Shown one piece after another: positions 771 to 60,814 of a DNA stretch of 64,000 nt. Positions within the stretch are counted from its first letter, which is position 1. Each line of letters opens with the position of its first letter. A program made the translations under genes and the position numbers. Below the pieces are notes generated by a model. It was not told the origin of the DNA. It made no database searches and worked only from the letters and a program-made list of their open reading frames with translations. Source of the stretch: Siphonodentalium dalli (Eukaryota; Mollusca; Scaphopoda; Gadilida; Siphonodentaliidae); assembly GCA_032622095.1 (NCBI GenBank), contig CP136068.1:62208025-62272024 (forward strand). Reading direction: 5' to 3'.

Positions 771-904
771 CCTGTCCTCTCTTATGAGTTCCTCCCTGTC
801 CACTATTATATGAGTTGCTGCCTGTCCACTCCTATATGAGTTACCGCCTGTCCACTCGTATATGAGTTCCAGCCTGTCCACTCTTATATGAGTTCCTGCC
901 TGTC

Positions 905-16170: not shown

Positions 16171-16254
16171 GAGTTCATCCCTGTCCACTCTTATATTAGT
16201 TCCTCCCTGTCCACTCTTATATTAGTTTCTCCCTGTTCTCTCTTATGAGTTCCT

Positions 16255-23599: not shown

Positions 23600-23634
23600 T
23601 GATGTCTGTCCACTCTTATATGAGTTCCTCCCTG

Positions 23635-26600
23635 TCCACTCTTATATGAGTTCCTCCCTGTCCACTCTTATATGAGTTCCTGCCAGCCACTCTTATATGA
23701 GTTCATCCATGTCCACTCTTATATGAGTTGCAGCCTGTCCACTCGTATATGAGTTCCCCCCTGTCGACTCTTGTGAGTTTCTCATTGTCCACACGTATAT
23801 GAGTTGCTGCCTGTCCACTATTATATGAGTTCCAGTCTGTCCACTCTTATATGAGTTCCTCATTTTCCACTCTTATATGAATTCCTCATTTTCCACTCTT
23901 ATATGAGTTCCTCCCAGTCCACTCTTATATGATTTGCTGCCTGTCCACTATTATATGAGTCCCAGCCTGTCCACTCTTGTGTGAATTCCTGCATGTCCAC
24001 TCTTATATGAGTTCTTCCCTGTCCACTCTTATATGAGTTCCTCCCTGTCCACTCTTATATGAGTTCCTCCCTGTCCACTCTAATATGAGTTCCTGCCTGT
24101 CCACTCTTATATGAGTTGCTGCCTGTCCACTCTTATATAAGTTCCTCCCTGTCCACTCTTATATTAGTTCCTCCCTGCCCACTCTTATATTAGTTCCTCC
24201 CTGTCCACTCATATATTAGTTCCTCCCTGTCCTCTCTTATATGAGATCCTCCCTGTCCACTCTTATATGAGTTGGACATGTATACTCTTATATGAGTTCC
24301 TCCCTGTCCACTCTTATGAGTTGCTGACTGTCAACTATTATATGAGTTCCTCCTTGTCCACTCTTATATGAGTTGCTGCCTGACACTATAATATGAGTTC
24401 ATCCATGTCCACTCTTATATGAGTTTCTGTCTGTACACTCTTATATGAGTTCCTCCCTGTCCACTCTTATACGAGTTGCTGAGTGTCCACTCTTATATCA
24501 GTTCCTGCCTGTCCACTCTTATATGAGTTCCTCCCTGTCCACTCTTATATGAGTTGCTGCCTGCCACTATTATATGAGTTCATCCATGTCTTCTCTTATA
24601 CGAGATGCTGTCTGTCCACTCTTATATGAGTTCCTCCCTGTCCACTCTTATATGAGTACCTGCCTGTCCACTCTTATATGAGTTCCTCTCTGTTCACTCT
24701 TATATGAGTTTCTCCCTGTCCACTCTTATATGAGTTCCTCCCTGTCCACTCTTATATGAGTTCCTGCGTGTCCACTCTTATATGAGTTGCTCCCTGTCCA
24801 CTCTTATATGAGTTACTCCCTGTCCACTCTTTTATGAGTTGCTCCCTGTCCACTATTTTATGAGTTGCTCCCTGTCCACTCTTTTATGAGTTCCTCCCTG
24901 TCCACTCTTATATGAGTTGGACCTGTATACTCTTATATGAGTTCCTCCCTGTCCACTCTTATATGAGTTCCTGCGTGTCCACTCTTATATGAGTCCCAGC
25001 CTGTCACTCTTATATGAATTTCTGCATGTCCACTCTTATATGAGTTCTTCCCTGTCCACTCTTATATGAGTTCCTCCCTGTCAACTCTTATGAGTTCCTC
25101 CCTGTACACTGTTATATGAGTTCCTGCCTGTCCACTCTTATATGAGTTGCTGCCTGTCCACTCTTATATGAGTTCCAGTCTGTCCACTCTTATATGAGTT
25201 CCTCATTTTCCACTCTTATATGAATTCCTCATTTTCCACTCTTATATGAGTTCCTCCCAGTCCACTCTTATATGAGTTGCTGCCTGTCCACTATTATATG
25301 AGTCCCAGCCTGTCCACTCTTGTGTGAATTCCTGCATGTCCACTCTTAATTGAGTTCTTCCCTGTCCACTCTTATATGAGTTCCTCCCTGTCCACTCTTA
25401 TATGAGTTCCTCCCTGTCCACTCTTATATGAGTTCCTGCCTGTCCACTCTTATATGAGTTGCTGCCTGTCCACTCTTATATAAGTTTCTTCCTGTCCACT
25501 CTTATATTAGTTCCTCCCTGCCCACTCTTATATTAGTTCCTCCCTGTCCACTCTTATATGAAATCCTCCCTGTCCACTCTTATATGAGTTGGACCTGTAT
25601 ACTCTTATATGAGTTCCTCCCTGTCCACTCTTATGAGTTGCTGACTGTCAACTATTATATGAGTTCTTCCTTGTCCACTCTTATATGAGTTGCTGCCTGC
25701 CACTATTATATGAGTTCATCCATGTCCACTCTTACATGAGTTTCTGTCTGTACACTCTTATATGAGTTCCTCCCTGTCCACTCTTATATGAGTTGTTGAG
25801 TGTCCACTCTTATATCAGTTCCTGCCTGTCCACTCTTATATGAGTTCCTCCCTGTCCACTCTAATATGAGTTGCTGCCTGCCACTATTATATGAGTTCAT
25901 CCATGTTCACTCTTATACGAGATGCTGTCTGTCCACTCTTATATGAGTTCCTCCCTGTCCACTATTATATGAGTTCCTGCCTGTCCACTCTTATATGAGT
26001 TCCTCCCTGTCCACTCTTATATGAGTTGCTGACTGTCCACTCTTATATGAATTCCTCCTTGTCCACTCTTATATGAGTTCCTCCTTGTCCACTCTTATAT
26101 GAGTTCCTCATTGTCCACTCTTATAAGAGTCCCTCATTGTCCACTCTTATATGAGTTCCTCATTGTCCACTATTATATGAGTTCCAGTCTATCCACTCTT
26201 ATATGAGTTCCTCATTTTCCACTCTTATATGAGTTCCTCCCAGTCCACTCTTATATGAGTTGTTGTCTGTCCACTATTATATGAGTCCCAGCCTGTCCAC
26301 TCTTATATGAATTCCTGCATGTCCACTCTTATATGAGTTCTTCCCTGTCCACTGTTATATGAGTTCCTCCCTGTTCACTCTTATTTGAGATCCTCCCTGT
26401 CCACTCTTATATGAGTTCCAGCCTGTCCACTCTTATATGAGTTCCTCCCTGTCCACTCTTATATGAGTTCCTCCCTGTCCACTCTTATGAGTTCCTCCCT
26501 GTCCACTCTAATATGAGTTCCTCCCTGTCCACTCTTATATGAGTTCCTCCCTGTCCACTCTTATATGAGTTCCTCCCTTTCCACTCTTATATGAGTTCCT

Positions 26601-28176
26601 CCCTGTCCACTCGTATATGAGTTCCTCCCTGTTCACTCTTATATGAGTTCCTGCCTGTCCACTCTTATGTGAGTTCCTCTCTGTCCACTCTTTTGAGTTC
26701 CTCCCTGTCCACTCTTATATGAGTTCCTCCCTGTTCACTCTTATGAGTTCCTCCCTGTCCACTCTAATATGAGTTCCTCCCTGTCCAACTTATATGAATT
26801 CCTCCATGTCCACTCTAATATGAGTTCCTGCATGTCCACTCTTATATGAGTTCCTCCCTGTCCACTCGTATATGAGTTCCTCCCTGTTCACTCTTATATG
26901 AGTTCCTCTCTGTCCACTCTTTTGAGTTCCTCCCTGTCCACACTTATATGAGTTCCTGCCTGTCCACTCTTATATGAGTTCCTGCCTGTCCACACTTATA
27001 TGATTTGCTCCCTGTCCACTCTTATATGAGTTGCTCCCTGTCCAATCTATTATGAGTTGCTCCCTGTCCACTCTTTTATGAGTTGCTCCCTGTTAACTCT
27101 TTTATGAGTTGCTCCCTGTCCACTCTTTTATGAGTTGCTCCCTGTCCACTCTAATATGAGTTGCTCCCTGTCCACTCTTATATGTGTTCCTGCCTGTCCA
27201 CTCTTATACGAGTTCCTCCCAGTCCACTCTTATATGAGTTCCTCCCAGTCCACTCTTATATGAGTTCCTCCCTGTCCACTCCTATATGAGTTTCTCCATG
27301 TCCACTCTTATATGAGTTCCTCCCTGTCCACTCTTATATGAGTTCCTGCCTGTCCACTCTTATATGGGTTCCCCCTGTCTACTCTTATGAGTTCCTCCCT
27401 GTCCACTCTTATATGAGTTCCCACTGTCCACTCTTATATGAGTTCCTGCATGTCCACTCTTATATGAGTTCCTCCCTGTCCACTCTTATATTAGTTGCTG
27501 CCTGCCACTCTTATATGAGTTCATCCATGTCCACTCTTATATGAGTTGATGTCTGTCCACTCTTATATGAGTTCCTCCCTGTCCACTGTTATATGAGTTT
27601 CTCCCTGTCCACTCTTATATGAGTTCCTGCCTGTCCACTCTTATATGAGTTCCTCCCTGTCCACTCGTATATGAGTTGCTGCCTGCCACTAGTTTATGAG
27701 TTCATCCATGTCCACTCTTATATGAGTTGCTGTCTGTCCACTCTTATATGAGTTCCTCCCTGTCCACTCTTATATGAGTTGCTGACTGTCCACTCTTATA
27801 TGAGTTGCTGCATGTCCACTCTTATATGAATTCATCCTTGTCCACTCTTATATGAGTTCCTCCCTGTCCACTCTTATATGAGTTCCTGCCTGTCCACTCT
27901 TATATGAATTCCTCCTTGTCCACTCTTATATGAGTTCATCCCTGTCCACTCTTATATGAGTTCCTCACAGTCCACTCTTATATGAGTTCCTCATTGTCCA
28001 CTCTTATATGAGTCCCTCATTGTCCACTCTTATATGAGTTGCTGCCTGTCCACTCGTATATGAGTTCCCCCCTGTCCACTCTTGTGAGTTCCTCATTGTC
28101 CACTCGTATATGAGTTGCTGCCTGTCCACTATTATATGAGTTCCAGTCTGTCCACTCTTATATGAGTTCCTCATTT
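23635..28176 (+). repeat. 4,542-bp higher-order repeat, copy 1
   Basis: The longest clean tandem duplication in the window. CTGCCAGCC at 23,680 and 28,222 and GTCTACT at 27,377 and 31,919 all give exactly 4,542 bp, with no net length change across the unit. It holds about 175 monomers, including two TTGGACC cassettes, a CCCAGCCTGTCACTC 25-mer, the TTATTTGAGATCC group, CCAACTTATATG, a TTTTATG run and GTCTACT. Only isolated substitutions separate the copies (for example CACACGTATATG near 23,800, ATACGAGTTGCTGAG near 24,471, CTAATATG near 25,861). Confidence 0.95.
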
Positions 28177-31100
28177 TCCACTCTTATATGAGTTCCTCCC
28201 TGTCCACTCTTATATGAGTTCCTGCCAGCCACTCTTATATGAGTTCATCCATGTCCACTCTTATATGAGTTGCAGCCTGTCCACTCGTATATGAGTTCCC
28301 CCCTGTCGACTCTTGTGAGTTTCTCATTGTCCACTCGTATATGAGTTGCTGCCTGTCCACTATTATATGAGTTCCAGTCTGTCCACTCTTATATGAGTTC
28401 CTCATTTTCCACTCTTATATGAATTCCTCATTTTCCACTCTTATATGAGTTCCTCCCAGTCCACTCTTATATGATTTGCTGCCTGTCCACTATTATATGA
28501 GTCCCAGCCTGTCCACTCTTGTGTGAATTCCTGCATGTCCACTCTTATATGAGTTCTTCCCTGTCCACTCTTATATGAGTTCCTCCCTGTCCACTCTTAT
28601 ATGAGTTCCTCCCTGTCCACTCTAATATGAGTTCCTGCCTGTCCACTCTTATATGAGTTGCTGCCTGTCCACTCTTATATAAGTTCCTCCCTGTCCACTC
28701 TTATATTAGTTCCTCCCTGCCCACTCTTATATTAGTTCCTCCCTGTCCACTCATATATTAGTTCCTCCCTGTCCTCTCTTATATGAGATCCTCCCTGTCC
28801 ACTCTTATATGAGTTGGACATGTATACTCTTATATGAGTTCCTCCCTGTCCACTCTTATGAGTTGCTGACTGTCAACTATTATATGAGTTCCTCCTTGTC
28901 CACTCTTATATGAGTTGCTGCCTGACACTATAATATGAGTTCATCCATGTCCACTCTTATATGAGTTTCTGTCTGTACACTCTTATATGAGTTCCTCCCT
29001 GTCCACTCTTATATGAGTTGCTGAGTGTCCACTCTTATATCAGTTCCTGCCTGTCCACTCTTATATGAGTTCCTCCCTGTCCACTCTTATATGAGTTGCT
29101 GCCTGCCACTATTATATGAGTTCATCCATGTCTTCTCTTATACGAGATGCTGTCTGTCCACTCTTATATGAGTTCCTCCCTGTCCACTCTTATATGAGTA
29201 CCTGCCTGTCCACTCTTATATGAGTTCCTCTCTGTTCACTCTTATATGAGTTTCTCCCTGTCCACTCTTATATGAGTTCCTCCCTGTCCACTCTTATATG
29301 AGTTCCTGCGTGTCCACTCTTATATGAGTTGCTCCCTGTCCACTCTTATATGAGTTACTCCCTGTCCACTCTTTTATGAGTTGCTCCCTGTCCACTATTT
29401 TATGAGTTGCTCCCTGTCCACTCTTTTATGAGTTCCTCCCTGTCCACTCTTATATGAGTTGGACCTGTATACTCTTATATGAGTTCCTCCCTGTCCACTC
29501 TTATATGAGTTCCTGCGTGTCCACTCTTATATGAGTCCCAGCCTGTCACTCTTATATGAATTTCTGCATGTCCACTCTTATATGAGTTCTTCCCTGTCCA
29601 CTCTTATATGAGTTCCTCCCTGTCAACTCTTATGAGTTCCTCCCTGTACACTGTTATATGAGTTCCTGCCTGTCCACTCTTATATGAGTTGCTGCCTGTC
29701 CACTCTTATATGAGTTCCAGTCTGTCCACTCTTATATGAGTTCCTCATTTTCCACTCTTATATGAATTCCTCATTTTCCACTCTTATATGAGTTCCTCCC
29801 AGTCCACTCTTATATGAGTTGCTGCCTGTCCACTATTATATGAGTCCCAGCCTGTCCACTCTTGTGTGAATTCCTGCATGTCCACTCTTAATTGAGTTCT
29901 TCCCTGTCCACTCTTATATGAGTTCCTCCCTGTCCACTCTTATATGAGTTCCTCCCTGTCCACTCTTATATGAGTTCCTGCCTGTCCACTCTTATATGAG
30001 TTGCTGCCTGTCCACTCTTATATAAGTTTCTTCCTGTCCACTCTTATATTAGTTCCTCCCTGCCCACTCTTATATTAGTTCCTCCCTGTCCACTCTTATA
30101 TGAAATCCTCCCTGTCCACTCTTATATGAGTTGGACCTGTATACTCTTATATGAGTTCCTCCCTGTCCACTCTTATGAGTTGCTGACTGTCAACTATTAT
30201 ATGAGTTCCTCCTTGTCCACTCTTATATGAGTTGCTGCCTGCCACTATTATATGAGTTCATACATGTCCACTCTTACATGAGTTTCTGTCTGTACACTCT
30301 TATATGAGTTCCTCCCTGTCCACTCTTATATGAGTTGTTGAGTGTCCACTCTTATATCAGTTCCTGCCTGTCCACTCTTATATGAGTTCCTCCCTGTCCA
30401 CTCTTATATGAGTTGCTGCCTGCCACTATTATATGAGTTCATCCATGTTCACTCTTATACGAGATGCTGTCTGTCCACTCTTATATGAGTTCCTCCCTGT
30501 CCACTATTATATGAGTTCCTGCCTGTCCACTCTTATATGAGTTCCTCCCTGTCCACTCTTATATGAGTTGCTGACTGTCCACTCTTATATGAATTCCTCC
30601 TTGTCCACTCTTATATGAGTTCCTCCTTGTCCACTCTTATATGAGTTCCTCATTGTCCACTCTTATAAGAGTCCCTCATTGTCCACTCTTATATGAGTTC
30701 CTCATTGTCCACTATTATATGAGTTCCAGTCTATCCACTCTTATATGAGTTCCTCATTTTCCACTCTTATATGAGTTCCTCCCAGTCCACTCTTATATGA
30801 GTTGTTGTCTGTCCACTATTATATGAGTCCCAGCCTGTCCACTCTTATATGAATTCCTGCATGTCCACTCTTATATGAGTTCTTCCCTGTCCACTGTTAT
30901 ATGAGTTCCTCCCTGTTCACTCTTATTTGAGATCCTCCCTGTCCACTCTTATATGAGTTCCAGCCTGTCCACTCTTATATGAGTTCCTCCCTGTCCACTC
31001 TTATATGAGTTCCTCCCTGTCCACTCTTATGAGTTCCTCCCTGTCCACTCTAATATGAGTTCCTCCCTGTCCACTCTTATATGAGTTCCTCCCTGTCCAC

Positions 31101-32718
31101 TCTTATATGAGTTCCTCCCTTTCCACTCTTATATGAGTTCCTCCCTGTCCACTCGTATATGAGTTCCTCCCTGTTCACTCTTATATGAGTTCCTGCCTGT
31201 CCACTCTTATGTGAGTTCCTCTCTGTCCACTCTTTTGAGTTCCTCCCTGTCCACTCTTATATGAGTTCCTCCCTGTTCACTCTTATGAGTTCCTCCCTGT
31301 CCACTCTAATATGAGTTCCTCCCTGTCCAACTTATATGAATTCCTCCATGTCCACTCTAATATGAGTTCCTGCATGTCCACTCTTATATGAGTTCCTCCC
31401 TGTCCACTCGTATATGAGTTCCTCCCTGTTCACTCTTATATGAGTTCCTCTCTGTCCACTCTTTTGAGTTCCTCCCTGTCCACACTTATATGAGTTCCTG
31501 CCTGTCCACTCTTATATGAGTTCCTGCCTGTCCACACTTATATGATTTGCTCCCTGTCCACTCTTATATGAGTTGCTCCCTGTCCAATCTATTATGAGTT
31601 GCTCCCTGTCCACTCTTTTATGAGTTGCTCCCTGTTAACTCTTTTATGAGTTGCTCCCTGTCCACTCTTTTATGAGTTGCTCCCTGTCCACTCTAATATG
31701 AGTTGCTCCCTGTCCACTCTTATATGTGTTCCTGCCTGTCCACTCTTATACGAGTTCCTCCCAGTCCACTCTTATATGAGTTCCTCCCAGTCCACTCTTA
31801 TATGAGTTCCTCCCTGTCCACTCCTATATGAGTTTCTCCATGTCCACTCTTATATGAGTTCCTCCCTGTCCACTCTTATATGAGTTCCTGCCTGTCCACT
31901 CTTATATGGGTTCCCCCTGTCTACTCTTATGAGTTCCTCCCTGTCCACTCTTATATGAGTTCCCACTGTCCACTCTTATATGAGTTCCTGCATGTCCACT
32001 CTTATATGAGTTCCTCCCTGTCCACTCTTATATTAGTTGCTGCCTGCCACTCTTATATGAGTTCATCCATGTCCACTCTTATATGAGTTGATGTCTGTCC
32101 ACTCTTATATGAGTTCCTCCCTGTCCACTGTTATATGAGTTTCTCCCTGTCCACTCTTATATGAGTTCCTGCCTGTCCACTCTTATATGAGTTCCTCCCT
32201 GTCCACTCGTATATGAGTTGCTGCCTGCCACTAGTTTATGAGTTCATCCATGTCCACTCTTATATGAGTTGCTGTCTGTCCACTCTTATATGAGTTCCTC
32301 CCTGTCCACTCTTATATGAGTTGCTGACTGTCCACTCTTATATGAGTTGCTGCATGTCCACTCTTATATGAATTCATCCTTGTCCACTCTTATATGAGTT
32401 CCTCCCTGTCCACTCTTATATGAGTTCCTGCCTGTCCACTCTTATATGAATTCCTCCTTGTCCACTCTTATATGAGTTCATCCCTGTCCACTCTTATATG
32501 AGTTCCTCACAGTCCACTCTTATATGAGTTCCTCATTGTCCACTCTTATATGAGTCCCTCATTGTCCACTCTTATATGAGTTGCTGCCTGTCCACTCGTA
32601 TATGAGTTCCCCCCTGTCCACTCTTGTGAGTTCCTCATTGTCCACTCGTATATGAGTTGCTGCCTGTCCACTATTATATGAGTTCCAGTCTGTCCACTCT
32701 TATATGAGTTCCTCATGT
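28177..32718 (+). repeat. 4,542-bp higher-order repeat, copy 2
   Basis: Immediate tandem partner of 23,635-28,176. Base-by-base comparison backward from 28,222 fails at 28,176/23,634 (T against G), which sets the junction inside a CATTTTCC monomer. Differences seen by eye are few: GTTCCTCCTTG near 30,203 where copy 1 has GTTCTTCCTTG, TTCATACATG near 30,255 where copy 1 has TTCATCCATG, and CTCATGTTCC at 32,717. After 32,718 the order changes to GAATTCCCCATTTT. Confidence 0.95.
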
Positions 32719-33051
32719 TCCACTCTTATATGAATTCCCCATTTTCCACTCTTATATGAGTTCCTCTCAGTCCACTCTTATATGAGTTGCTGCCTGTCCA
32801 CTATTATATGAGTCCCAGCCTTCCACTCTTGTGTGAATTCCTGGATGTCCACTCTTATATGAGTTCCTCCCAGTCCACTCGTATATGAGTTGTTGTCTGT
32901 CCACTATTATATGAGTCCCAGCCTGTCCACTCTTATATGAATTACTGCATGTCCACTCTTATATGAGTTCTTCCCTGTCCACTGTTATATGAGTTCCTCC
33001 CTGTCCACTCTTATTTGAGATCCTCCCTGTCCACTCTTATATGAGTTCCAG
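32719..33051 (+). repeat. Linker monomers between the 4,542- and 3,478-bp pairs
   Basis: Thirteen or so monomers joining the two large duplications: GAATTCCCC, CTCTCAG, GCTGCC, CCCAGCCTTCC (a 25-bp form that has lost GT), GAATTCCTGGATG, CTCCCAG, GTTGTTGTCTG, TTATTTGAGATCC and TTCCAGCC. From about 32,860 the order repeats 30,776 onward, so this is the start of another partial 2.1-kb unit rather than unique DNA. Confidence 0.8.
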
Positions 33052-36000
33052 CCTGTCCACTCTTATATGAGTTCCTCCCTGTCCACTCTTATATGAGTTC
33101 CTCCCTGTCCACTCTTATGAGTTCCTCCCTGTCCACTCTAATATGAGTTCCTCCCTGTCCACTCTTATATGAGTTCCTCCCTGTCCACTCTTATATGAGT
33201 TCCTCCCTTTCCACTCTTATATGAGTTCCTCCCTGTCCACTCGTATATGAGTTCCTCCCTGTTCACTCTTATATGAGTTCCTGCCTGTCCACTCTTATAT
33301 GAGTTCCTCTCTGTCCACTCTTTTGAGTTCCTCCCTGTCCACTCTTATATGAGTTCCTCCCTGTCCACTCTTATGAGTTCCTCCCTGTCCACTCTAATAT
33401 GAGTTCCTCCCTGTCCAACTTATATGAATTCCTCCATGTCCACTCTAATATGAGTTCCTGCATGTCCACTCTTATATGAGTTCCTCCCTGTCCACTCGTA
33501 TATGAGTTCCTCCCTGTTCACTCTTATATGAGTTCCTGCCTGTCCACTCTTATATGAGTTCCTCTCTGTCCACTCTTTTGAGTTCCTCCCTGTCCACACT
33601 TATATGAGTTCCTGCCTGTCCACTCTTATATGAGTTCCTGCCTGTCCACACTTATATGATTTGCTCCCTGTCCACTCTTATATGAGTTGCTCCCTGTCCA
33701 ATCTTTTATGAGTTGCTCCCTGTCCACTCTTTTATGAGTTGCTCCCTGTTAACTCTTTTATGAGTTGCTCCCTGTCCACTCTTTTATGAGTTGCTCCCTG
33801 TGCACTCTAATATGAGTTGCTCCCTGTCCACTCTTATATGTGTTCCTGCCTGTCCACTCTTATACGAGTTCCTCCCAGTCCGCTCTTATATGAGTTCCTC
33901 CCAGTCCACTCTTATATGAGTTCCTCCCTGTCCACTCCTATATGAGTTTCTCCATGTCCACTCTTATATGAGTTCCTCCCTGTCCACTCTTATATGAGTT
34001 CCTGCCTGTCCACTCTTATATGGGTTCCCCCTGTCTACTCTTATGAGTTCCTCCCTGTCCACTCTTATATGAGTTCCCACTGTCCACTCTTATATGAGTT
34101 CCTGCATGTCCACTCTTATATGAGTTCCTCCCTGTCCACTCTTATATGAGTTGCTGCCTGCCACTCTTATATTAGTTCATCCATGTCCACTCTTATATGA
34201 GTTGATGTCTGTCCACTCTTATATGAGTTCCTCCCTGTCCACTCTTATATGAGTTGGACCTGTATACTCTTATATGAGTTCCTCCCTGTCCACTCTTATA
34301 TGAGTTCCTCCCTGTCCACTCTTATATGAGTTTCTCCCTGTCCACTCTTATATGAGTTCCTGCCTGTCCACTCTTATATGAGTTCCTCCCTGTCCACTCA
34401 TATATGAGTTGCTGCCTGCCACTAGTATATGAGTTCATCCATGTCCACTCTTATATGAGTTGCTGTCTGTCCACTCTTATATGAGTTCCTCCCTGTCCAC
34501 TCTTATATGAGTTGGACCTGTATACTCTTATATGAGTTCCTCCCTGTCCACTCTTATGAGTTCCTCCCTGTCCACTCTAATATGAGTTCCTCCCTGTCCA
34601 ACTTATATGAATTCCTCCATGTCCACTCTAATATGAGTTCCTGCATGTCCACTCTTATATGAGTTCCTCCCTGTCCACTCGTATATGAGTTCCTCCCTGT
34701 TCACTCTTATATGAGTTCCTGCCTGTCCACTCTTATATGAGTTCCTCTCTGTCCACTCTTTTGAGTTCCTCCCTGTCCACACTTATATGAGTTCCTGCCT
34801 GTCCACTCTTATATGAGTTCCTGCCTGTCCACACTTATATGATTTGCTCCCTGTCCACTCTTATATGAGTTGCTCCCTGTCCAATCTTTTATGAGTTGCT
34901 CCCTGTCCACTCTTTTATGAGTTGCTCCCTGTTAACTCTTTTATGAGTTGCTCCCTGTCCACTCTTTTATGAGTTGCTCCCTGTCCACTCTAATATGAGT
35001 TGCTCCCTGTCCACTCTTATATGTGTTCCTGCCTGTCCACTCTTATACGAGTTCCTCCCAGTCCACTCTTATATGAGTTCCTCCCAGTCCACTCTTATAT
35101 GAGTTCCTCCCTGTCCACTCCTATATGAGTTTCTCCATGTCCACTCTTATATGAGTTCCTCCCTGTCCACTCTTATATGAGTTCCTGCCTGTCCACTCTT
35201 ATATGGGTTCCCCCTGTCTACTCTTATGAGTTCCTCCCTGTCCACTCTTATATGAGTTCCCACTGTCCACTCTTATATGAGTTCCTGCATGTCCACTCTT
35301 ATATGAGTTCCTCCCTGTCCACTCTTATATGAGTTGCTGCCTGCCACTCTTATATGAGTTCATCCATGTCCACTCTTATATGAGTTGATGTCTGTCCACT
35401 CTTATATGAGTTCCTCCCTGTCCACTCTTATATGAGTTGGACCTGTATACTCTTATATGAGTTCCTCCCTGTCCACTCTTATATGAGTTCCTCCCTGTCC
35501 ACTCTTATATGAGTTTCTCCCTGTCCACTCTTATATGAGTTCCTGCCTGTCCACTCTTATATGAGTTCCTCCCTGTCCACTCGTATATGAGTTGCTGCCT
35601 GCCACTAGTATATGAGTTCATCCATGTCCACACTTATATGATTTACTGTCTGTCCACTCTTATATGAGTTCCTCCCTGTCCACTCTTATATGAGTTGGAC
35701 CTGTATACTCTTATATGAGTTCCTCCCTGTCCACTCTAATATGAGTTGCTGACTGTCCACTCTTATATGAGTTGCTGCATGTCCACTCTTATATGAATTC
35801 ATCCTTGTCCACTCTTATATGAGTTCCTCCCTGTCCACTCTTATATGAGTTCCTGCCTGTCCACTCTTATATGAATTCCTCCTTGTCCACTCTTATATGA
35901 GTTCATCCCTGTCCACTCTTATATGAGTTCATCACAGTCCACTCTTATATGAGTTCCTCATTGTCCACTCTTATATGAGTCCCTCATTGTCCACTCTTAT

Positions 36001-36529
36001 ATGAGTTCTTCCCTGTCCACTCTTATATGAGTTCCTCCCTGTCCACTCTTATATGAGTTCCTCCCTGTCCACTCTTATATGAGTTCCTGCCTGTCCACTC
36101 TTATATGAGTTGCTGCCTGTCCACTCTTATATAAGTTCCTCCCTGTCCACTCTTATATTAGTTCCTCCCTGCCCACTCTTATATTAATTCCTCCCTGTCC
36201 ACTCATATATTAGTTCCTCCCTGTCCTCTCTTATATGAGATCCTCCCTGTCCACTCTTATATGAGTTGAACCTGTATACTCTTATAGGAGTTCCTCCCTG
36301 TCCACTCTTATATGAGTTGCTGAGTGTCCACTCTTATATCAGTTCCTGCCTGTCCACTCTTATATGAGTTCCTCCCTGTCCACTCTTATATGAGTTGCTG
36401 CCTGCCACTATTATATGAGTTCATCCATGTCCACTCTTATACGAGATGCTGTCTGTCCACTCTTATATGAGTTCCTCCCTGTCCACTCTTATATGAGTTC
36501 CTGCCTGTCCACTCTTATATGAGTTCCTC
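33052..36529 (+). repeat. 3,478-bp higher-order repeat, copy 1
   Basis: GTCTACT at 34,033 and 37,511 and at 35,216 and 38,694, and GTTCTTCCC near 36,001 and 39,479, give a constant offset of 3,478 bp. Base comparison places the left boundary at 33,052/36,530. The unit itself contains a 1,183-bp tandem duplication followed by about 820 bp of TTGGACC, CTCATTG, TATATAAG and GCTGAGTG monomers. Confidence 0.94.
33341..35706 (+). repeat. Nested 1,183-bp tandem pair inside copy 1
   Basis: Two adjacent 1,183-bp copies, 33,341-34,523 and 34,524-35,706 (CCAACT at 33,415 and 34,598; GTCTACT at 34,033 and 35,216). They differ by markers such as TATATTAGTTCATCC near 34,171 in the first and CACACTTATATGATTTACTG near 35,631 in the second. 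The same two markers reappear in the corresponding halves of the second 3,478-bp copy. Confidence 0.92.
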
Positions 36530-39500
36530 CCTGTCCACTCTTATATGAGTTCCTCCCTGTCCACTCTTATATGAGTTCCTCCCTGTCCACTCTTATGAGT
36601 TCCTCCCTGTCCACTCTAATATGAGTTCCTCCCTGTCCACTCTTATATGAGTTCCTCCCTGTCCACTCTTATATGAGTTCCTCCCTTTCCACTCTTATAT
36701 GAGTTCCTCCCTGTCCACTCGTATATGAGTTCCTCCCTGTTCACTCTTATATGAGTTCCTGCCTGTCCACTCTTATATGAGTTCCTCTCTGTCCACTCTT
36801 TTGAGTTCCTCCCTGTCCACTCTTATATGAGTTCCTCCCTGTCCACTCTTATGAGTTCCTCCCTGTCCACTCTAATATGAGTTCCTCCCTGTCCAACTTA
36901 TATGAATTCCTCCATGTCCACTCTAATATGAGTTCCTGCATGTCCACTCTTATATGAGTTCCTCCCTGTCCACTCGTATATGAGTTCCTCCCTGTTCACT
37001 CTTATATGAGTTCCTGCCTGTCCACTCTTATATGAGTTCCTCTCTGTCCACTCTTTTGAGTTCCTCCCTGTCCACACTTATATGAGTTCCTGCCTGTCCA
37101 CCCTTATATGAGTTCCTGCCTGTCCACACTTATATGATTTGCTCCCTGTCCACTCTTATATGAGTTGCTCCCTGTCCAATCTTTTATGAGTTGCTCCCTG
37201 TCCACTCTTTTATGAGTTGCTCCCTGTTAACTCTTTTATGAGTTGCTCCCTGTCCACTCTTTTATGAGTTGCTCCCTGTCCACTCTAATATGAGTTGCTC
37301 CCTGTCCACTCTTATATGTGTTCCTGCCTGTCCACTCTTATACGAGTTCCTCCCAGTCCGCTCTTATATGAGTTCCTCCCAGTCCACTCTTATATGAGTT
37401 CCTCCCTGTCCACTCCTATATGAGTTTCTCCATGTCCACTCTTATATGAGTTCCTCCCTGTCCACTCTTATATGAGTTCCTGCCTGTCCACTCTTATATG
37501 GGTTCCCCCTGTCTACTCTTATGAGTTCCTCCCTGTCCACTCTTATATGAGTTCCCACTGTCCACTCTTATATGAGTTCCTGCATGTCCACTCTTATATG
37601 AGTTCCTCCCTGTCCACTCTTATATGAGTTGCTGCCTGCCACTCTTATATTAGTTCATCCATGTCCACTCTTATATCAGTTGATGTCTGTCCACTCTTAT
37701 ATGAGTTCCTCCCTGTCCACTCTTATATGAGTTGGACCTGTATACTCTTATATGAGTTCCTCCCTGTCCACTCTTATATGAGTTCCTCCCTGTCCACTCT
37801 TATATGAGTTTCTCCCTGTCCACTCTTATATGAGTTCCTGCCTGTCCACTCTTATATGAGTTCCTCCCTGTCCACTCGTATATGAGTTGCTGCCTGCCAC
37901 TAGTATATGAGTTCATCCATGTCCACTCTTATATGAGTTGCTGTCTGTCCACTCTTATATGAGTTCCTCCCTGTCCACTCTTATATGAGTTGGACCTGTA
38001 TACTCTTATATGAGTTCCTCCCTGTCCACTCTTATGAGTTCCTCCCTGTCCACTCTAATATGAGTTCCTCCCTGTCCAACTTATATGAATTCCTCCTTGT
38101 CCACTCTAATATGAGTTCCTGCATGTCCACTCTTATATGAGTTCCTCCCTGTCCACTCGTATATGAGTTCCTCCCTGTTCACTCTTATATGAGTTCCTGC
38201 CTGTCCACTCTTATATGAGTTCCTCTCTGTCCACTCTTTTGAGTTCCTCCCTGTCCACACTTATATGAGTTCCTGCCTGTCCACTCTTATATGAGTTCCT
38301 GCCTGTCCACACTTATATGATTTGCTCCCTGTCCACTCTTATATGAGTTGCTCCCTGTCCAATCTTTTATGAGTTGCTCCCTGTCCACTCTTTTATGAGT
38401 TGCTCCCTGTTAACTCTTTTATGAGTTGCTCCCTGTCCACTCTTTTATGAGTTGCTCCCTGTCCACTCTAATATGAGTTGCTCCCTGTCCACTCTTATAT
38501 GTGTTCCTGCCTGTCCACTCTTATACGAGTTCCTCCCAGTCCACTCTTATATGAGTTCCTCCCAGTCCACTCTTATATGAGTTCCTCCCTGTCCACTCCT
38601 ATATGAGTTTCTCCATGTCCACTCTTATATGAGTTCCTCCCTGTCCACTCTTATATGAGTTCCTGCCTGTCCACTCTTATATGGGTTCCCCCTGTCTACT
38701 CTTATGAGTTCCTCACTGTCCACTCTTATATGAGTTCCCACTGTCCACTCTTATATGAGTTCCTGCATGTCCACTCTTATATGAGTTCCTCCCTGTCCAC
38801 TCTTATATGAGTTGCTGCCTGCCACTCTTATATGAGTTCATCCATGTCCACTCTTATATGAGTTGATGAATGTCCACTCTTATATGAGTTCCTCCCTGTC
38901 CACTCTTATATGAGTTGGACCTGTATACTCTTATATGAGTTCCTCCCTGTCCACTCTTATATGAGTTCCTCCCTGTCCACTCTTATATGAGTTTCTCCCT
39001 GTCCACTCTTATATGAGTTCCTGCCTGTCCACTCTTATATGAGTTCCTCCCTGTCCACTCGTATATGAGTTGCTGCCTGCCACTAGTATATGAGTTCATC
39101 CATGTCCACACTTATATGATTTACTGTCTGTCCACTCTTATATGAGTTCCTCCCTGTCCACTCTTATATGAGTTGGACCTGTATACTCTTATATGAGTTC
39201 CTCCCTGTCCACTCTAATATGAGTTGCTGACTGTCCACTCTTATATGAGTTGCTGCATGTCCACTCTTATATGAATTCATCCTTGTCCACTCTTATATGA
39301 GTTCCTCCCTGTCCACTCTTATATGAGTTCCTGCCTGTCCACTCTTATATGAATTCCTCCTTGTCCACTCTTATATGAGTTCATCCCTGTCCACTCTTAT
39401 ATGAGTTCCTCACAGTCCACTCTTATATGAGTTCCTCATTGTCCACTCTTATATGAGTCCCTCATTGTCCACTCTTATATGAGTTCTTCCCTGTCCACTC

Positions 39501-39902
39501 TTATATGAGTTCCTCCCTGTCCACTCTTATATGAGTTCCTCCCTGTCCACTCTTATATGAGTTCCTGCCTGTCCACTCTTATATGAGTTGCTGCCTGTCC
39601 ACTCTTATATAAGTTCCTCCCTGTCCACTCTTATATTAGTTCCTCCCTGCCCACTCTTATATTAATTCCTCCCTGTCCACTCATATATTAGTTCCTCCCT
39701 GTCCTCTCTTATATGAGATCCTCCCTGTCCACTCTTATATGAGTTGAACCTGTATACTCTTATAGGAGTTCCTCCCTGTCCACTCTTATATGAGTTGCTG
39801 AGTGTCCACTCTTATAACAGTTCCTGCCTGTCCACTCTTATATGAGTTCCTCCCTGTCCACTCTTATATGAGTTGCTGCCTGCCACTATTATATGAGTTC
39901 AT
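36530..39902 (+). repeat. 3,478-bp higher-order repeat, copy 2 (incomplete end)
   Basis: Tandem partner of 33,052-36,529, matching to 39,902 (3,373 bp), where TTCATCCATG becomes TTCATGCGTG. Rare private changes include CACCCTTATATG near 37,100, TATATCAGTTGATG near 37,675, GAATTCCTCCTTG near 38,095, GTTGATGAATG near 38,865 and TATAACAG near 39,813. The last about 105 bases expected of a full copy are replaced by another monomer series. Confidence 0.93.
36819..39184 (+). repeat. Nested 1,183-bp tandem pair inside copy 2
   Basis: The counterpart of 33,341-35,706: copies at about 36,819-38,001 and 38,002-39,184 (GTCTACT at 37,511 and 38,694). It keeps both distinguishing markers of the first pair in the same order (TATATTAGTTCATCC near 37,649 and CACACTTATATGATTTACTG near 39,109). 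The 1,183-bp duplication therefore predates the 3,478-bp one. Confidence 0.92.
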
Positions 39903-40740
39903 GCGTGTCCACTCTTATATGAGTTGCTCCCTGTCCACTCTTATATGAGTTGCTGTCTGTCCACTCTTATATGAGTTCCTCCCTGTCCACTCTTATATGA
40001 GTTCCTGCTTGTCCACTCTTATATGAGTTCCTCCCTGTCCACTCTTATATGAGTTCCTCCCTGTCCACTCTTATATGAGTTCATGCGTGTCCACTCTTAT
40101 ATGAGTTGCTCCCTGTCCACTCTTATATGAGTTGCTCCCTGTCCACTCTTTTATGAGTTGCTCCCTGTCCACTCTTATATGAGTTGGACCTGTCCACTCT
40201 TATATGAGTCCCAGCCTGTCACTCTTATATGAATTCCTGCATGTCCACTCTTATATGAGTTCTTCCCTGTCCACTCTTATATGAGTTCCTCCCTGTCAAC
40301 TCTTATATGAGTTCTTCCCTGTCCACTCTTATATGAGTTCCTCCCTGTCAACTCTTATGAGTTCCTCCCTGTACACTGTTATATGAGTTCTTGCCTGTCC
40401 ACTCTTATATGAGTTGCTGCCTGTCCACTCTTATATGAGTTCCAGTCTGTCCACTCTTATATGAGATCCTCATTTTCCACTCTTATATGAATTCCTCATT
40501 TTCCACTCTTATATGAGTTCTTCCCTGTCCACTCTTATATGAGTTCCTCCCTGTCAACTCTTATGAATTCCTCCCTGTACACTGTTATATGAATTCCTGC
40601 ATGTCCACTCTTATATGAGTTCTTCCCTGTCCACTCTTATATGAGTTCCTGCCTGTCCACTCTTATATGAGTTCCTACATGTCCACTCTTATATGAGTTC
40701 CTGCCTGTCCACTCTTATATGATTTGCTGCCTGTCCACTC

Positions 40741-41000
40741 TTATATAAGTTCCTCCCTGTCCACTCTTATATTAGTTCCTCCCTGCCCACTCTTATATTA
40801 GTTCCTCCCTGTCCACTCATATATTAGTTCCTCCCTGTCCTCTCTTATATGAGATCCTCCCTGTCCACTCTTATATAAGTTCCTCCCTGTCCACTCTTAT
40901 ATTAGTTCCTCCCTGCCCACTCTTATATTAGTTCCTCCCTGTCCACTCATATATTAGTTCCTCCCTGTCCTCTCTTATATGAGATCCTCCCTGTCCACTC
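40741..41000 (+). repeat. 130-bp (five-monomer) tandem duplication
   Basis: TATATAAG, TATATTAG with CTGCCCACTC, TATATTAG, ACTCATATATTAG and CCTGTCCTCTC/GAGATCC monomers occur at 40,741-40,870 and again at 40,871-41,000 with an offset of exactly 130 bp. Elsewhere in the window (for example near 15,780-15,900 and 24,130-24,250) this five-monomer cassette occurs once. The second copy is therefore a local gain. Confidence 0.93.
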
Positions 41001-41274
41001 TTATATGAGTTGGACCTGTATACTCTTATATGAGTTCCTCCCTGTCCACTCTTATATGAGTTGCTGCCTGCCACTATTATATGAGTTCATCCATGTCCAC
41101 TCTTATATGAGTTTCTGTCTGTACACTCTTATATGAGTTCCTCCCTGTACACTCTTATATGAGTTGCTGAGTGTCCACTCTTATATCAGTTCCTGCCTGT
41201 CCTCTCTTATATGAGTTCCTCCCTGTCCACTCTTATATGAGTTGCTGCCTGCCACTATTATATGAGTTCATCCA

Positions 41275-41365
41275 TGTCCACTCTTATACGAGATGCTGTC
41301 TGTCCACTCTTATACGAGATGCTGTCTGTCCACTCTTATACGAGATGCTGTCTGTCCACTCTTAT
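41275..41365 (+). repeat. Triplicated ATACGAGATGCTGTCTG monomer
   Basis: Three identical consecutive 26-bp monomers carry ATACGAG plus ATGCTGTCTG. In the same context elsewhere (14,900, 24,598, 29,140, 36,440, 44,010, 45,298) this monomer is single. Each copy brings a CpG (ACGAG), so it is also a small CpG cluster in an otherwise CpG-poor array. Confidence 0.93.
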
Positions 41366-43534
41366 ATGAGTTCCTCCCTGTCCACTCTTATATGAGTTCC
41401 TCCCTGTCCACTCTTATATGAGTTCCTCCCTGTCCACTCTTATATGAGTTCCTCCCTGTCCACTCTTATATGAGTTCCTGCGTGTCCACTCTTATATGAG
41501 TTGCTCCCTGTCCACTCTTATATGAGTTGCTCCCTGTACACTCTTTTATGAGTTGCTCCCTGTCCACTATTTTATGAGTTGCTCCCTGTCCACTCTTTTA
41601 TGAGTTCCCCCCTGTCCACTCTTATATGAGTTGGACCTGTATACTCTTATATGAGTTCCTCCCTGTCCACTCTTATATGAGTTCCTGCATGTCCACTCTT
41701 ATATGAGTCCCAGCCTGTCACTCTTATATGAATTCCTGCATGTCCACTCTTATATGAGTTCTTCCCTGTCCACTCTTATATGAGTTCCTCCCTGTCAACT
41801 CTTATGAGTTCCTCCCGTACACTGTTATATGAGTTCCTGCCTGTCCACTCTTATATGAGTTGCTGCCTGTCCACTCTTATATGAGTTCCTCCCTGTCCAC
41901 TGTTATATGAGTTCCTCCCTGTCCACTCTTATATTAGTTCCTCCCTGCCCACTCTTATATTAGTTCCTCCCTGTACACTCATATATTAATTCCTCCCTGT
42001 CCTCTTTTATATGAGTTCCTCCCTGTCCACTCTTATATGAGTTGCTGCCTGTCCACTCGTATATGAGTTCCAGCCTGTCCACTCTTATGAGTTCCTGCAT
42101 GTCCAGTCTTATGAGTTCCTCCCTGTCCACTCTTATATGAGTTCCTGCCTGTCCACTCTTATGAGTTCCAGCCTGTCCACTCTTATATTAGTTCCTCACT
42201 GTCCACTCTTATATTAGTTACTCCCAGTCCACTCTTATATTAGTTCCTCCATGTACACTCATATATTAGTTCCTACCTGTCCTCTCTTATGAGTTCCTCC
42301 CTGTCCACTATTATATGAGTTGCTGCCTGTCCACTCGTATATGAGTTCCAGCCTGTCCACTCGTATATGAGTTCCAGCCTGTCCACTCTTATATGAGTTC
42401 CTGCCTGTCCACTCTTATGAGTTCCTCCATGTCCACTCTTATGAGTTCCTCCCTGTCCACTCTTATGAGTTCCTCCCTGTCCACTCTTATATGAGTTCCT
42501 CCCTGTCCACTCTTATATGAATTACTGCATGTCCACTCTTATATGAGTTCTTCCCTGTCCACTCTTATATGAGTTCCTCACTGTCAACTCTTATGAGTTC
42601 CTCCCTGTACACTGCTATATGAGTTCCTGCCTGTCCACTCTTATATGAGTTCCTGCCTGCCCACTCTTAAATGAGTTCCTGCCTGTCCACTCTTATATGG
42701 GTTCCTCCCTGTCCACTGTTATATGAGATCCTCACTGTCCACTCTTATATGAGTTCCAGCCTGTCCACTCTTATATGAGTTCCTCCCTGTCCACTCTTAT
42801 ATGAGTTCCTCCCTGTCCACTCTTATGAGTTCCTCCCTGTCCACTCTAATATGAGTTGCTGACTGTCCACTATTATATGAGTTCCTGCCTGTCCACTCTT
42901 ATATGAGTTCCTCCCTGTCCACTAGTATATGAGTTGCTGCCTGCCACTAGTATATGAGTTCATCCATGTCCACTCTTATATGAGTTGCTGTCTGTCCACT
43001 CTTATATGAGTTCCTCCCTGTCCACTCTTATATGAGTTGCTGACTGTCCACTCTTATATGAATTCCTCCTTGTCCACTCGTATATGAGTTCCACCCTGTC
43101 CACTCTTGTGAGTTCCTCATTGTCCACTCGTATATGAGTCCCTTATTGTCCACTCTTATATGAGTTCCTCATTGTCCACTATTATATGAGTTCCAGTCTA
43201 TCCACTCTTATATGAGTTCCTCATTTTCCACTCTTATATGAGTTCCTCCCAGTCCACTCTTATATAAGTTGTTGTCTGTCCACTATTATATGAGTCCCAG
43301 CCTGTCCACTCTTATATGAATTCCTGCATGTCCACTCTTATAAGAGTTCTTCCCTGTCCACTGTTATATGAGTTCCTCCCTGTCCACTCTTATTTGAGAT
43401 CCTCCCTGTCCGCTCTTATATGTGTTCCAGCCTGTCCACTCTTATGTGAGTTCCTCCCTGTCCACTCTTATATGAGTTCCTCCCCGTCCACTCTTATATG
43501 AGTTCCTGCCTGTCCACTCTTATATGAGTTGCTG

Positions 43535-44796
43535 CCTGTCCACTCTTATATAAGTTCCTCCCTGTCCACTCTTATATTAGTTCCTCCCTGCCCACTCTTA
43601 TATTAGTTTCTCCCTGTCCACTCATATATTAGTTCATCCCTGTCCTCTCTTATATGAGATCCTCCCTGTCCACTCTTATATGAGTTGGACCTGTATACTC
43701 TTATATGAGTTCCTCCCTGTCCACTCTTATGAGTTGCTGACTGTCAACTATTATATGAGTTCCTCCTTGTCCACTCTTATATGAGTTGCTGCCTGCTACT
43801 ATTATATGAGTTCATCCATGTCCACTCTGATATGAGTTTCTGTCTGTACACTCTTATATGAGTTCCTCCCTGTCCACTCTTATATGAGTTGCTGAGTGTC
43901 CACTCTTATATCAGTTCCTGCCTGTCCACTCTTATATGAGTTCCTCCCTGTCCACTCTTATATGAGTTGCTGCCTGCCACTATTATATGAGTTCATCCCT
44001 GTCCACTCTTATACGAGATGCTGTCTGTCCACTCTTATATGAGTTCCTCCCTGTCTACGCTTATATGAGTTCCTGCCTGTCCACTCTTATATGAGTTCCT
44101 CTCTGTCCACTCTTATATGAGTTCCTCCCTGTCCACTCTTATATGAGTTCCTCCCTGTCCACTCTTATATGAGTTCCTGCGTGTCCACTCTTATATGAGT
44201 TGCTCCCTGTCCACTCTTATATGAGTTGCTCCCTGTCCACTCTTTTATGAGTTGCTCCCTGTCCACTATTTTATGAGTTGCTCCCTGTCCACTCTTTTAT
44301 GAGTTCCTCCCTGTCCACTCTTATATGAGTTGGACCTGTATACTCTTATATGAGTTCCTGTCCACTCTTATATGAGTTCCTGCATGTCCACTCTCATATG
44401 AGTTCTTCCCTGTCCACTCTTATATGAGTTCCTCCCTGTCAACTCTTATGAGTTCCTCCCTGTACACTGTTATATGAGTTCCTGCCTGTCCACTCTTATA
44501 TGAGTTGCTGCCTGTCCACTCTTATATGAGTTCCAGTCTGTCCACTCTTATATGAGTTCCAGTCTGTCCACTCTTATATGAGTTCCTCATTTTCCACTCT
44601 TATATGAATTCCTCATTTTCCACTCTTATATGAATTCCTCATTTTCCACTCTTATATGAGTTCCTCCCAGTCCACTCTTATATGAGTTGCTGCCTGTCCA
44701 CTATTATATGAGTCCCAGCCTGTCCACTCTTGTGTGAATTCCTGCATGTCCACTCTTATATGCGTTCTTCCTTGTCCACTCTTATATGAGTTCCTC
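43535..44796 (+). repeat. 1,262-bp tandem pair, copy 1
   Basis: TATATAAG at 43,551 and 44,813 and TTGGACC near 43,685 and 44,947 give 1,262 bp. The unit runs TATATAAG, TATATTAG, TTGGACC, GCTGACTGTCAAC, GCTGAGTG, ATACGAG, GTTGCTCCC, a second TTGGACC, GTACACTG, TTCCAGTCTG and CATTTTCC. A shortened monomer at about 44,351 (TTCCTG joined directly to TCCACTC, 4 bp missing) is private to this copy. Confidence 0.85.
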
Positions 44797-45870
44797 CCTG
44801 TCCACTCTTATATAAGTTCCTCCCTGTCCACTCTTATATTAGTTCCTCCCTGCCCACTCTTATATTAGTTCCTCCCTGTCCACTAATATATTAGTTCCTC
44901 CCTGTCCTCTCTTATATGAGATCCTCCCTGTCCACTCTTATATGAGTTGGACCTGTATACTCTTATATGAGTTCCTCCCTGTCCACTCATGAGTTGCTGA
45001 CTTTCAACTATTATATGAGTTCCTCCTTGTCCACTCTTATATGAGTTGCTGCCTGCCACTATTATATGAGTTCATCCATGTCCACTCTTATATGAGTTTC
45101 TGTCTGTACACTCTTATATGAGTTCCTCCCTGTCCACTCTTATATGAGTTGCTGAGTGTCCACTCTTATATGAGTTGCTGAGTGTCCACTCTTATATCAG
45201 TTCCTGCCTGTCCACTCTTATATGAGTTCCTCCCTGTCCACTCTTATATGAGTTGCTGTCTGCCACTATTATATGAGTTCTTCCATGTCCACCCTTATAC
45301 GAGATGCTGTCTGTCCACTCTTATATGAGTTCCTCCCTGTCCACTCTTATATGAGTTCCTGCCTGTCCACTCTTATATGAGTTCCTCACTGTCCACTCTT
45401 ATATGAGTTCCTCCCTGTCCACTCTTATATGAGTTCCTCCCTGTCCACTCTTATATGAGTTCCTGCGTGTCCACTCTTATATGAGTTGCTCCCTGTCCAC
45501 TCTTATATGAGTTGCTCCCTGTCCACCCTTTTATGAGTTGCTCCCTGTCCACTCTTTTATGAGTTGCTCCCTGTCCACTCTTTTATGAGTTCCTCCCTGT
45601 CCACTCTTATATGAGTTGGACCTGTATACTCTTATATGAGTTCCTCCCTGTCCACTCTTATATGAGTTCCTGCATGTCCACTCTTATGTGAGTCCCAACC
45701 TGTCACTCTTATATGAATTCCTGCATGTCCACTATTATATGAGTTCTTCCCTGTCCACTCTTATATGAGTTCCTCCCTGTCAACTCTTATGAGTTCCTCC
45801 CTGTACACTGTTATATGAGTTCCTGCCTGTCCACTCTTATATGAGTTGCTGCCTGTCCATTCTTATATGA
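44797..45870 (+). repeat. 1,262-bp tandem pair, copy 2 (diverging)
   Basis: Follows 43,535-44,796 directly. Private changes include CTCATGAGTTGCTGAC near 44,988 (a 22-bp monomer that has lost 4 bp), a duplicated GCTGAGTG monomer near 45,148-45,200, and an extra CCCAACCTGTCACTC series near 45,690. Correspondence is lost near 45,870, where TATATTAG and ACTCATATATTAATT monomers begin. Confidence 0.8.
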
Positions 45871-48540
45871 GTTCCTCCCTGTCCACTCTTATATGAGTTC
45901 CTCCCTGTCCACTCTTATATTAGTTCCTCCCTGTCCACTCTTATATTAGTTCCTCCCGGTACACTCATATATTAATTCCTCCCTGTCCTCTCTTATATGA
46001 GTTCCTCCCTGTACACTCTTATATGAGTTGCTGCCTGTCCACTCGTATATGAGTTCCAGCCTGTCCACTCTTATGAGTTCCTGCATGTCCAGTCTTATGA
46101 GTTCCTCCCTGTCCACTCTTATATGAGTTCCTGCCTGTCCACTCTTATGAGTTCCAGCCTGTCCACTCTTATGAGTTCCAGCCTGTCCACTCTTATATGA
46201 GTTCCTCCATGTCCACTCTTATATTAGTTCCTCCCTGTCCACTCTTATATTAGTTTCTCCCTGTCCACTCTTATATTAGTTCCTCCCGGTCCACTATTAT
46301 ATTAGTTCCTCCCTGTCCACTCTTATATTAGTTCCTCCATGTACACTCATATATTAGTTCCTCCCTGTCCTCCCTTATGAGTTCCTCCCTCTCCACTATT
46401 ATATGAGTTGCTGCCTGTCCACTCGTATATGAGTTCCAGCCTGTCCACTCGTATATGAGTTCCAGCCTGTCCACTCTTATATGAGTTCCTGCCTGTCCAC
46501 TCTTATGAGTTCCTCCATGTCCACTCTTATGAGTTCCTCCCTGTCCACTCTTATGAGTTCCTCCCTGTCCACTCTTATATGAGTTCCTCCCTGTCCACTC
46601 TTATATGAATTACTGCATGTCCACTCTTATATGAGTTCTTCCCTGTCCACTCTTATATGAGTTCCTACCTGTCAACTGTTATGAGTTCCTCCCTGTACAC
46701 TGCTATATGAGTTCCTGCCTGTCCAATCTTATATGAGTTCCTGCCTGCCCACTCTTAAATGAGTTCCTGCCTGTCCACTCTTATATGGGTTCCTCCCTGT
46801 TCACTCTTATATGAGTTCCTCCCTGTCCACTCTTATATGAGTTCCTCCCTGTCCACTCTTATATGAGTTCCTCCCTGTCCACTCTTATATGAGTTCCTCC
46901 CTGTCCACTCTTATATGAGTTCCTCCCTGTCCACTGTTGTATGAGTTCCTCCCTGTCCACTCTTATGAGTTCCTCCCTGTCCACTCTAATATGAGTTCCT
47001 CCCTATCCATCTTATATGAGTTCCTCCCTGTCCACTCTAATATGAGTTCCTCCCTGTCCACTCTAATATGAGTTCCTGCATGTCCACTCGCATATGAGTT
47101 CCTGCCTGTCCACTCTTATGAGTTTCAGCCTGTCCACTCTAATGAGTTCCAGCCTGTTCACTCTTATATGAGTTCCTCCCTGTTCACTCTTATATTAGTT
47201 CCTCCCTGTCCACTCTTATATTAGTTCCTCCCTGTCCACTCTTATATTAGTTCCTCCGTGTACACTCATATATTAGTTCCTCCCTGTCCTCTCTTATGAG
47301 TTCCTCCTGTCCACTATTATATGAGTTGCTGCCTGTCCACTCGTATATGAGTTCCAGCCTGTCCACTCGTATATGAGTTCCAGCCTGTCCACTCTTATAT
47401 GAGTTCCTGCCTGTCCACTCTTATGAGTTCCTCCATGTCCACTCTTATGAGTTCCTCCCTGTCCACTCTTATGAGTTCCTCCCTGTCCACTCTTATATGA
47501 GTTCCTGCCTGTCCACTCTTATATGAGTTCCAGCCTGTCCACTCTTATATGAGTTCCTGCCTGTCCACTCTTATATGAGTTCCTCACTGTCCACTTTATA
47601 TGAGTTCCTCCCTGTCCACTCTTATGTGAGTTCCTGCCTGTCCACTATTATATGAGTTCCTCCTTGTCCACTCTTATATGAGTTGCTCCCCGTCCATTCT
47701 TTTATGAGTCTCTCCCTGTCCACTCAAATATGAGTTCCTCCCTGACCACTCTTATATATGTTCCTGCCTGTCCACTCTTATATGAGTTGCTCCCTGTCCA
47801 TTTTTGTATGAGTTTCTCCCTTTCCACTCAAATATGAGTTCCTCCCTGACCACTCTTATATCTGTTCCGGCCTGTCCACTCTTATATGAGTTCCTGCCTG
47901 ACCACTCTTATATGAGTTCCTCCCTGTCCACTCTTATATGAGTTCCTCCCTGTCCACTCTTATATGAGTTTCTCCCTGTCCACTCTTATATGAGTTCCTC
48001 CCTGTCCACTCTTATATGAGTTCCTCCCTGTCCACTCTTATATGAGTTCCTCCCTGTCCACTCTTATATGAGTTCCTCCCTGCCCACTCTTATGAGTTCC
48101 TCCCTGTCCACTCTAATATGAGTTCCTCCCTGTCCATCTTATATGAGTTCCTCCCTGTCCACTCTAATATGAGTTCCTCCCTGTCCACTCTAATATGAGT
48201 TCCTGCATGTCCACTCGCATATGAGATCCTCCCTGTTCACTCTTATATGAGTTCCTGCTTGTCCACTCTTATATGAGTTCCTCTCTGTCCACTCTTATAT
48301 GAGATCCTCCCTGTCCACTCTTATATGAGTTCCTCCCTGTCCACTCTTATATGAGTTCATGTGTGTCCACTCTTATGAGTTCCTGCGTGTCCCCTCTTAT
48401 ATGAGTTGCTCCCTGTCCACTCTTATATGAGTTGATCCCTGTCCACTCTTTTATGAGTTGCTCCCTGTCCACTCTTTTATGAGTTGCTCCCTGTCCACTC
48501 TTTTATGAGTTCCTCCCTGTCCACTCTTATATGAGTTGGA
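45871..48540 (+). repeat. Mosaic region rich in 24-mers and TTAGTT monomers
   Basis: The TATATTAG, ACTCATATATTAATT, CTCGTATATGAGTTCCAGCC and 24-mer cassettes appear twice, near 46,000-46,570 and 47,200-47,490. The part 46,020-46,800 matches 42,040-42,720 (ATTACTGCATG at 42,531 and 46,609). The first ACTCAAATATG monomers of the window, with CTGACCACTC and TATATATG/TATATCTG partners, occur at 47,722 and 47,825. Confidence 0.75.
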
Positions 48541-60780: not shown

Positions 60781-60814
60781 CTCTTATGAGTTCATCCATG
60801 TCCACTCTTATATG

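Follow-up and report, generated by a model that had tools for sequence, protein, structure and literature searches.

An inner tandem duplication that probably predates the outer one in a 26-bp satellite array

Satellites grow through cycles of duplication and divergence, complex higher-order repeats included, and the array considered here is like the satellites treated in the consulted part of a review on the subject, in that a hierarchy of duplication and divergence is built from short units (PMC5615363). Among the closest described systems is the CentC satellite of maize, where, in the portion of the study drawn on here, adjacent multi-monomer duplications at centromere 10 were found with a tree of monomers and were given seven dates, 98-498 kya (PMC4806543). 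As in that account, adjacent multi-monomer satellite duplications can be ordered in time at the present locus; CentC, however, has a 156-bp monomer and belongs to a known centromere, whereas the monomer here is 26 bp and the ages are relative only (same portion of PMC4806543). A second parallel is provided by human alpha-satellite, for which excerpts of two studies describe new multi-monomer units that lie within older arrays and have been ordered by phylogeny (PMC11062924, PMC9549924). In those excerpts, the human alpha-satellite HORs resemble the present case in that newer multi-monomer units are found inside an older array (PMC11062924, PMC9549924), and one of them favours, in its own alpha-satellite case, mechanisms that go beyond simple unequal crossover (PMC11062924). 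The nested duplication described below looks like ordinary satellite evolution, a known kind that opens no new question. It is a clean, small example of satellite growth via layered segmental duplication, and it could serve as a worked case or as a test for duplication-history software because the state that preceded duplication is preserved next door.

The window, by which we mean the whole stretch of DNA that was analysed (64,000 bp), consists without interruption of short monomers repeated head to tail. A single array of period 26 spans it from end to end according to TRF (2,485.9 copies, 87% matches). Segmentation yielded 2,484 monomers in 460 distinct forms, with 2,078 monomers of exactly 26 bp and most of the rest of 24 or 25 bp; mean identity is 92.7% to the consensus and 87.4% between random pairs of 26-bp monomers. 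Base content is strongly strand-skewed (T 38.6%, C 30.6%, A 17.3%, G 13.6%), and CpG is scarce, with 189 occurrences against 2,658 expected from base content, mainly because the consensus itself contains no CpG. The coding potential of the array was set aside, as the 64,000-bp window has no closed ORF of at least 80 aa.

The monomer of human alpha-satellite is 171 bp long, and centromeric alpha satellite carries the CENP-B box. In contrast, the monomer here is 26 bp and copies of the multi-monomer block described below are irregularly spaced; the CENP-B box pattern has no match on either strand of the 64,000-bp window, and neither of these two features of centromeric alpha satellite is thus present. 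With a 130-bp probe taken from the block, 13 matching places were located in the window; their spacings are irregular (593-6,147 bp) and show no regular higher-order period, which argues for segmental tandem duplications and not for a regular HOR array. No Rfam family reaches its gathering score. Satellite patterns of 32 and 20 bases had no exact match in bacterial and archaeal genome contigs, nor had those of 25 and 20 bases in viral contigs; block A (Table 1) had no megablast match among plasmids, the satellite had no blastn match among phages, and four satellite strings of 15-17 bases were absent from the paper text searched. The absence of any sequence matching the 26-bp satellite thus applies to prokaryotic, viral and text collections and points to little more than a probably eukaryotic source.

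Within the array, a 3,478-bp unit is present twice in tandem, and each copy contains a tandem pair of 1,183-bp blocks (A and B in copy 1, C and D in copy 2; Table 1), an arrangement that an earlier note on this DNA had described and that was recovered in all four blocks. These multi-monomer units are far more alike than monomers are: identity is 99.7% between the 3,478-bp copies (over a clean 3,373 bp) and 99.1-99.7% between blocks, as against 87.4% between random 26-bp monomer pairs. The longest run of exactly identical monomers at a fixed offset is 88 in the window and only 3-5 in ten shuffles of monomer order, so that chance is excluded. The 1,183-bp inner repeat likewise extends over 1,255 bp (at least 92% identity), whereas shuffling the monomers of its 3,478-bp copy 20 times gave no inner repeat above 455 bp. 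Block starts and the 1,183-bp offset are identical in both 3,478-bp copies, and the 26-bp phase is unchanged by either duplication (46 and 135 monomers).

Table 1. Positions of the nested duplication, its parts and its unduplicated counterparts within the window
Feature	Position	Strand	Basis or remark
26-bp satellite, head-to-tail, uninterrupted	1..64000	+	Consensus CCACTCTTATATGAGTTCCTCCCTGT; TRF and monomer segmentation
Second unduplicated arrangement	26218..28172	+	4,542-bp duplicate of 30760-32714
Unduplicated arrangement, one block between left and right flanks	30760..32714	+	Alignment jumps 1,209 bp in duplicated copy
Copy 1 of the 3,478-bp (135-monomer) duplication	33052..36529	+	Offset-3478 identity, monomer count, phase
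Block A, 1,183 bp, 46 monomers	33341..34523	+	
Block B, tandem partner of A	34524..35706	+	
77-bp (3-monomer) stretch, present in A-D	35392..35468	+	
Monomer with three clustered derived changes, block B	35627..35652	+	Also in D at 39105
Second 3,478-bp copy (copy 2), lengthened by a 26-bp monomer	36530..40033	+	Gapped alignment
Block C, copy-2 equivalent of A	36819..38001	+	
Block D, copy-2 equivalent of B	38002..39184	+	

Identity at offset 1183 covers 33341-34554 and 36819-38032, 1,214 bp in each case, so the exact breakpoint of the 1,183-bp duplication floats over 31 bp. At offset 3478, 10 of 3,373 bp differ (0.30%) over the clean part of the match (33052-36424); to the left of 33052 the match is not clean, and at the right end a gap is needed. 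The position 39902, which had been taken as the end of the region, is where the ungapped match ends and not where the duplication does. The ungapped match stops there because copy 2 has an extra 26-bp monomer, located by gapped alignment of 36400-36620 with 39878-40124 at about 39902-39927, after which the match resumes; the right limit of copy 2 that follows from this is uncertain by a monomer or two. Near the right end of each copy (36250-36379 and 39728-39857) lies a stretch of unusual monomers: a 130-bp probe taken here matches at 124/130 or better only at these two places in the window, and the other 16 probes have 9 to 46 matching places each.

The relationships among the four blocks can be read from few but consistent characters. 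Pairwise differences per 1,183 bp are 4 for A-C and for B-D, 7 for A-B and for B-C, and 11 for C-D and for A-D. Five of the 13 variable columns unite A with C and B with D, no column favours either of the other two groupings (AB|CD and AD|BC), and the remaining eight are singletons (two in A, none in B, two in C and four in D). In bootstraps the AC|BD grouping comes out strictly best in 99.0% of column replicates and in 98.4% of replicates by 26-bp blocks. All five informative sites are polarised by other copies of the block in the window. At block positions 542 and 833 the B/D state is found in 6/6 outgroup copies examined, and at positions 1109, 1119 and 1122 the A/C state in 7/7, so that A and C share two derived changes and B and D three. 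Since each pair has derived changes of its own, the root falls between A+C and B+D.

The same pairs were obtained in a rooted ML tree of A-D and seven further block copies from the window, 11 of the 13 probe places in all, from which the copy at 12610 and a partial copy near 20944 were left out. Support is 90/90 for A+C and 96/95 for B+D, as against only 61/0 for the node that separates A-D from the copies O1 and O2. This is the tree that the earlier note had predicted; the pairing it had named as contrary to its view, that of the two blocks within one 3,478-bp copy, was not seen, and the best tree with A and B together is rejected (p-AU 0.000735). The two short markers put forward to distinguish the halves fared unequally: GATTTACTGTCTG occurs in the window at two sites only (35640 and 39118), but TTAGTTCATCC occurs at five (15836, 34172, 37650, 43629 and 60659) and is therefore not specific. 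The ratio of the older to the younger divergence is about 2.25 (bootstrap 1.2-7), and a crude test of counts, in which A/B and C/D are not independent, gives 18/2,366 for the older and 10/3,373 for the younger (p = 0.019).

The three changes shared by B and D, which make up three of the five informative sites, fall inside a 14-bp span of a single monomer. The initial 18 bp of this monomer, with two of the three changes, are found elsewhere only at 26989, 31531, 33645, 34828, 37123 and 38306, six places that represent another monomer type also present in the same blocks. To judge from these sequences, the cluster is probably a templated, conversion-like patch as regards two of its changes; the third is absent from the candidate donor type. 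The divergence between the halves had been described as point divergence, which fits the two A-side substitutions better than the three clustered sites, for two of which a patch is likely. If the cluster represents one event, the characters, few in any case at 13 variable columns, include only three that are independent, and the chance of a named topology is then 1/27; the rest of the case would be carried by the shared offset, the shared block starts and the surviving unduplicated arrangement. All four blocks also contain a 77-bp stretch that the outgroup copies O1, O2, H1, H2 and T lack at the corresponding place (U and V, whose alignments stop within it, are uninformative here) and that has an exact copy 258 bp downstream. 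Most simply, it was gained in the common ancestor of A-D.

Two stretches to the left of copy 1 have the same flanks around a single block. When 30760-32714 is aligned with copy 1, the left flank and the start of A match with 5 mismatches in 671 bp, after which the alignment jumps 1,209 bp (1,183 + 26, a block plus a monomer) and resumes in B and the right flank. The other stretch, 26218-28172, shows the same jump when aligned with copy 1. Because both alignments skip one block and one monomer, the unduplicated state persists in the window.

The most probable reading, to which we assign a probability of roughly 0.86, is that the 1,183-bp duplication came first, divergence followed and the 3,478-bp duplication came afterwards, by in-register tandem segmental growth of the 26-bp array. 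This order is shown by the site patterns, the outgroup polarity, the rooted tree and the two nearby unduplicated stretches. The earlier note had given the same sequence of events, which the tree, the polarity and the unduplicated stretches uphold, but its claim that the order "must be" so goes further than five sites in four blocks can by themselves justify. The ancestral unit would have consisted of a left flank, one block of ~1.2 kb and a right flank, with the 77 bp, most simply, gained first. The block would next have doubled in tandem, adding 46 monomers, after which the A half would have acquired two substitutions and the B half three clustered changes that were probably templated in part. 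The whole unit of 135 monomers would then have doubled. Of the private substitutions that came last, eight would have fallen in the blocks and two in the clean flanks, and copy 2 would have gained a 26-bp monomer at its end. That the 26-bp register is preserved and that the 1,183-bp junction falls within 31 bp of homology suggests an origin of both duplications between matching monomers, through unequal exchange, replication slippage or the repair of breaks; the sequence would fit these three processes alike and does not separate them.

A tree that pairs A with C and B with D would also result if a one-block unit of ~2,295 bp had been duplicated first, the block had doubled in one of the copies and the doubled state had then been transferred to the other by conversion or gap repair. 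Conversion-like changes do seem to be present, in the clustered B/D changes and in the 77-bp stretch with its exact copy 258 bp away. Such a transfer, however, predicts more divergent flanks, and the flanks differ at 2/1,007 positions as against 8/2,366 in the pair (p = 0.73, with low power); we regard it as improbable. That the second 3,478-bp copy is an assembly artefact, a false duplication made from two haplotypes, seems quite improbable: the 0.30% difference is within reach of allelic variation, but nothing in the sequence demands this explanation and the copies are joined in register. Even in that case, with copies 1 and 2 as alleles, the 1,183-bp duplication would remain and would be older than their split. 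Separate doubling of the block in each 3,478-bp copy, with A and B and likewise C and D as sister pairs, is possible in principle, given that a pair of part of the same block exists at a different spacing (1,081 bp, at 21495-23600), but it merits next to no credence, with 0/5 informative sites in its favour, the A+B tree rejected as above, and offset and block starts identical in both pairs.

The order favoured here, inner duplication before outer, is also found in the neighbouring 4,542-bp tandem duplication (23604-32733), which is younger and longer, its inner part differing at 5 of 4,540 bp. It contains an older nested repeat of 797 bp at offset 1,317, for which the sites are 42:0:0 for the same kind of order, and which exceeds the inner repeats in all 20 shuffles of its monomers (longest 309 bp). 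The earlier note had called so clear a chronology rare in satellite DNA, a view that is not supported in the light of this second clear case and of the dated satellite duplications in the consulted portion of the maize study (PMC4806543).

How common such nesting is was judged from ungapped repeat pairs of at least 350 bp, of which 445 were found in the window and 150 listed. Eleven outer duplications were picked by hand from the listed pairs, several of them overlapping and hence not independent, with at most six inner repeats listed for each. In three of the eleven (4542, 3478 and 9697) an inner repeat is longer than any in 20 shuffles, that of the 9697 duplication (385 bp) having 1:0:0 sites only. 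The longest inner repeat in each of the other eight was equalled in 2 to 20 of the 20 shuffles, so the site patterns there show only what any duplication would produce, a pairing across copies of monomers in equivalent positions. The proposition that all eleven hold older inner repeats was rejected, since these eight do not go beyond the shuffle control. Among the inner repeats listed there is one conflicting site, in the 29110 duplication (10:0:1), and the 2272 duplication has 0:0:0. The evidence for nesting being common is modest, and neither rarity nor ubiquity is shown by it.

Divergence within the larger duplications ranges from 0.11% (4,542) to 1.5-1.6% (1,258 and 1,075), a spread that makes the array a stack of layers of different age. 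The most frequent repeat offsets are 4542, 3478, 2272, 2270 and 1183. The tandem pair at 21495-23600 differs at 10 of 1,025 positions, and suggests repeated doubling of the block region; among the matches listed there are two close tandem block pairs with different spacing (1,183 bp and 1,081 bp). Given these pairs and the 13 probe places, it is conceivable, if unlikely, that the ~1.1-kb block is a preferred duplication unit, for which a sequence- or replication-dependent hotspot could be the explanation. Three tandem copies lie at 7407-14136 with spacings of 2,272 and 2,270 bp, the sum of which is 4,542 bp, the size of the separate duplication at 23604-32733; this is possibly a coincidence.
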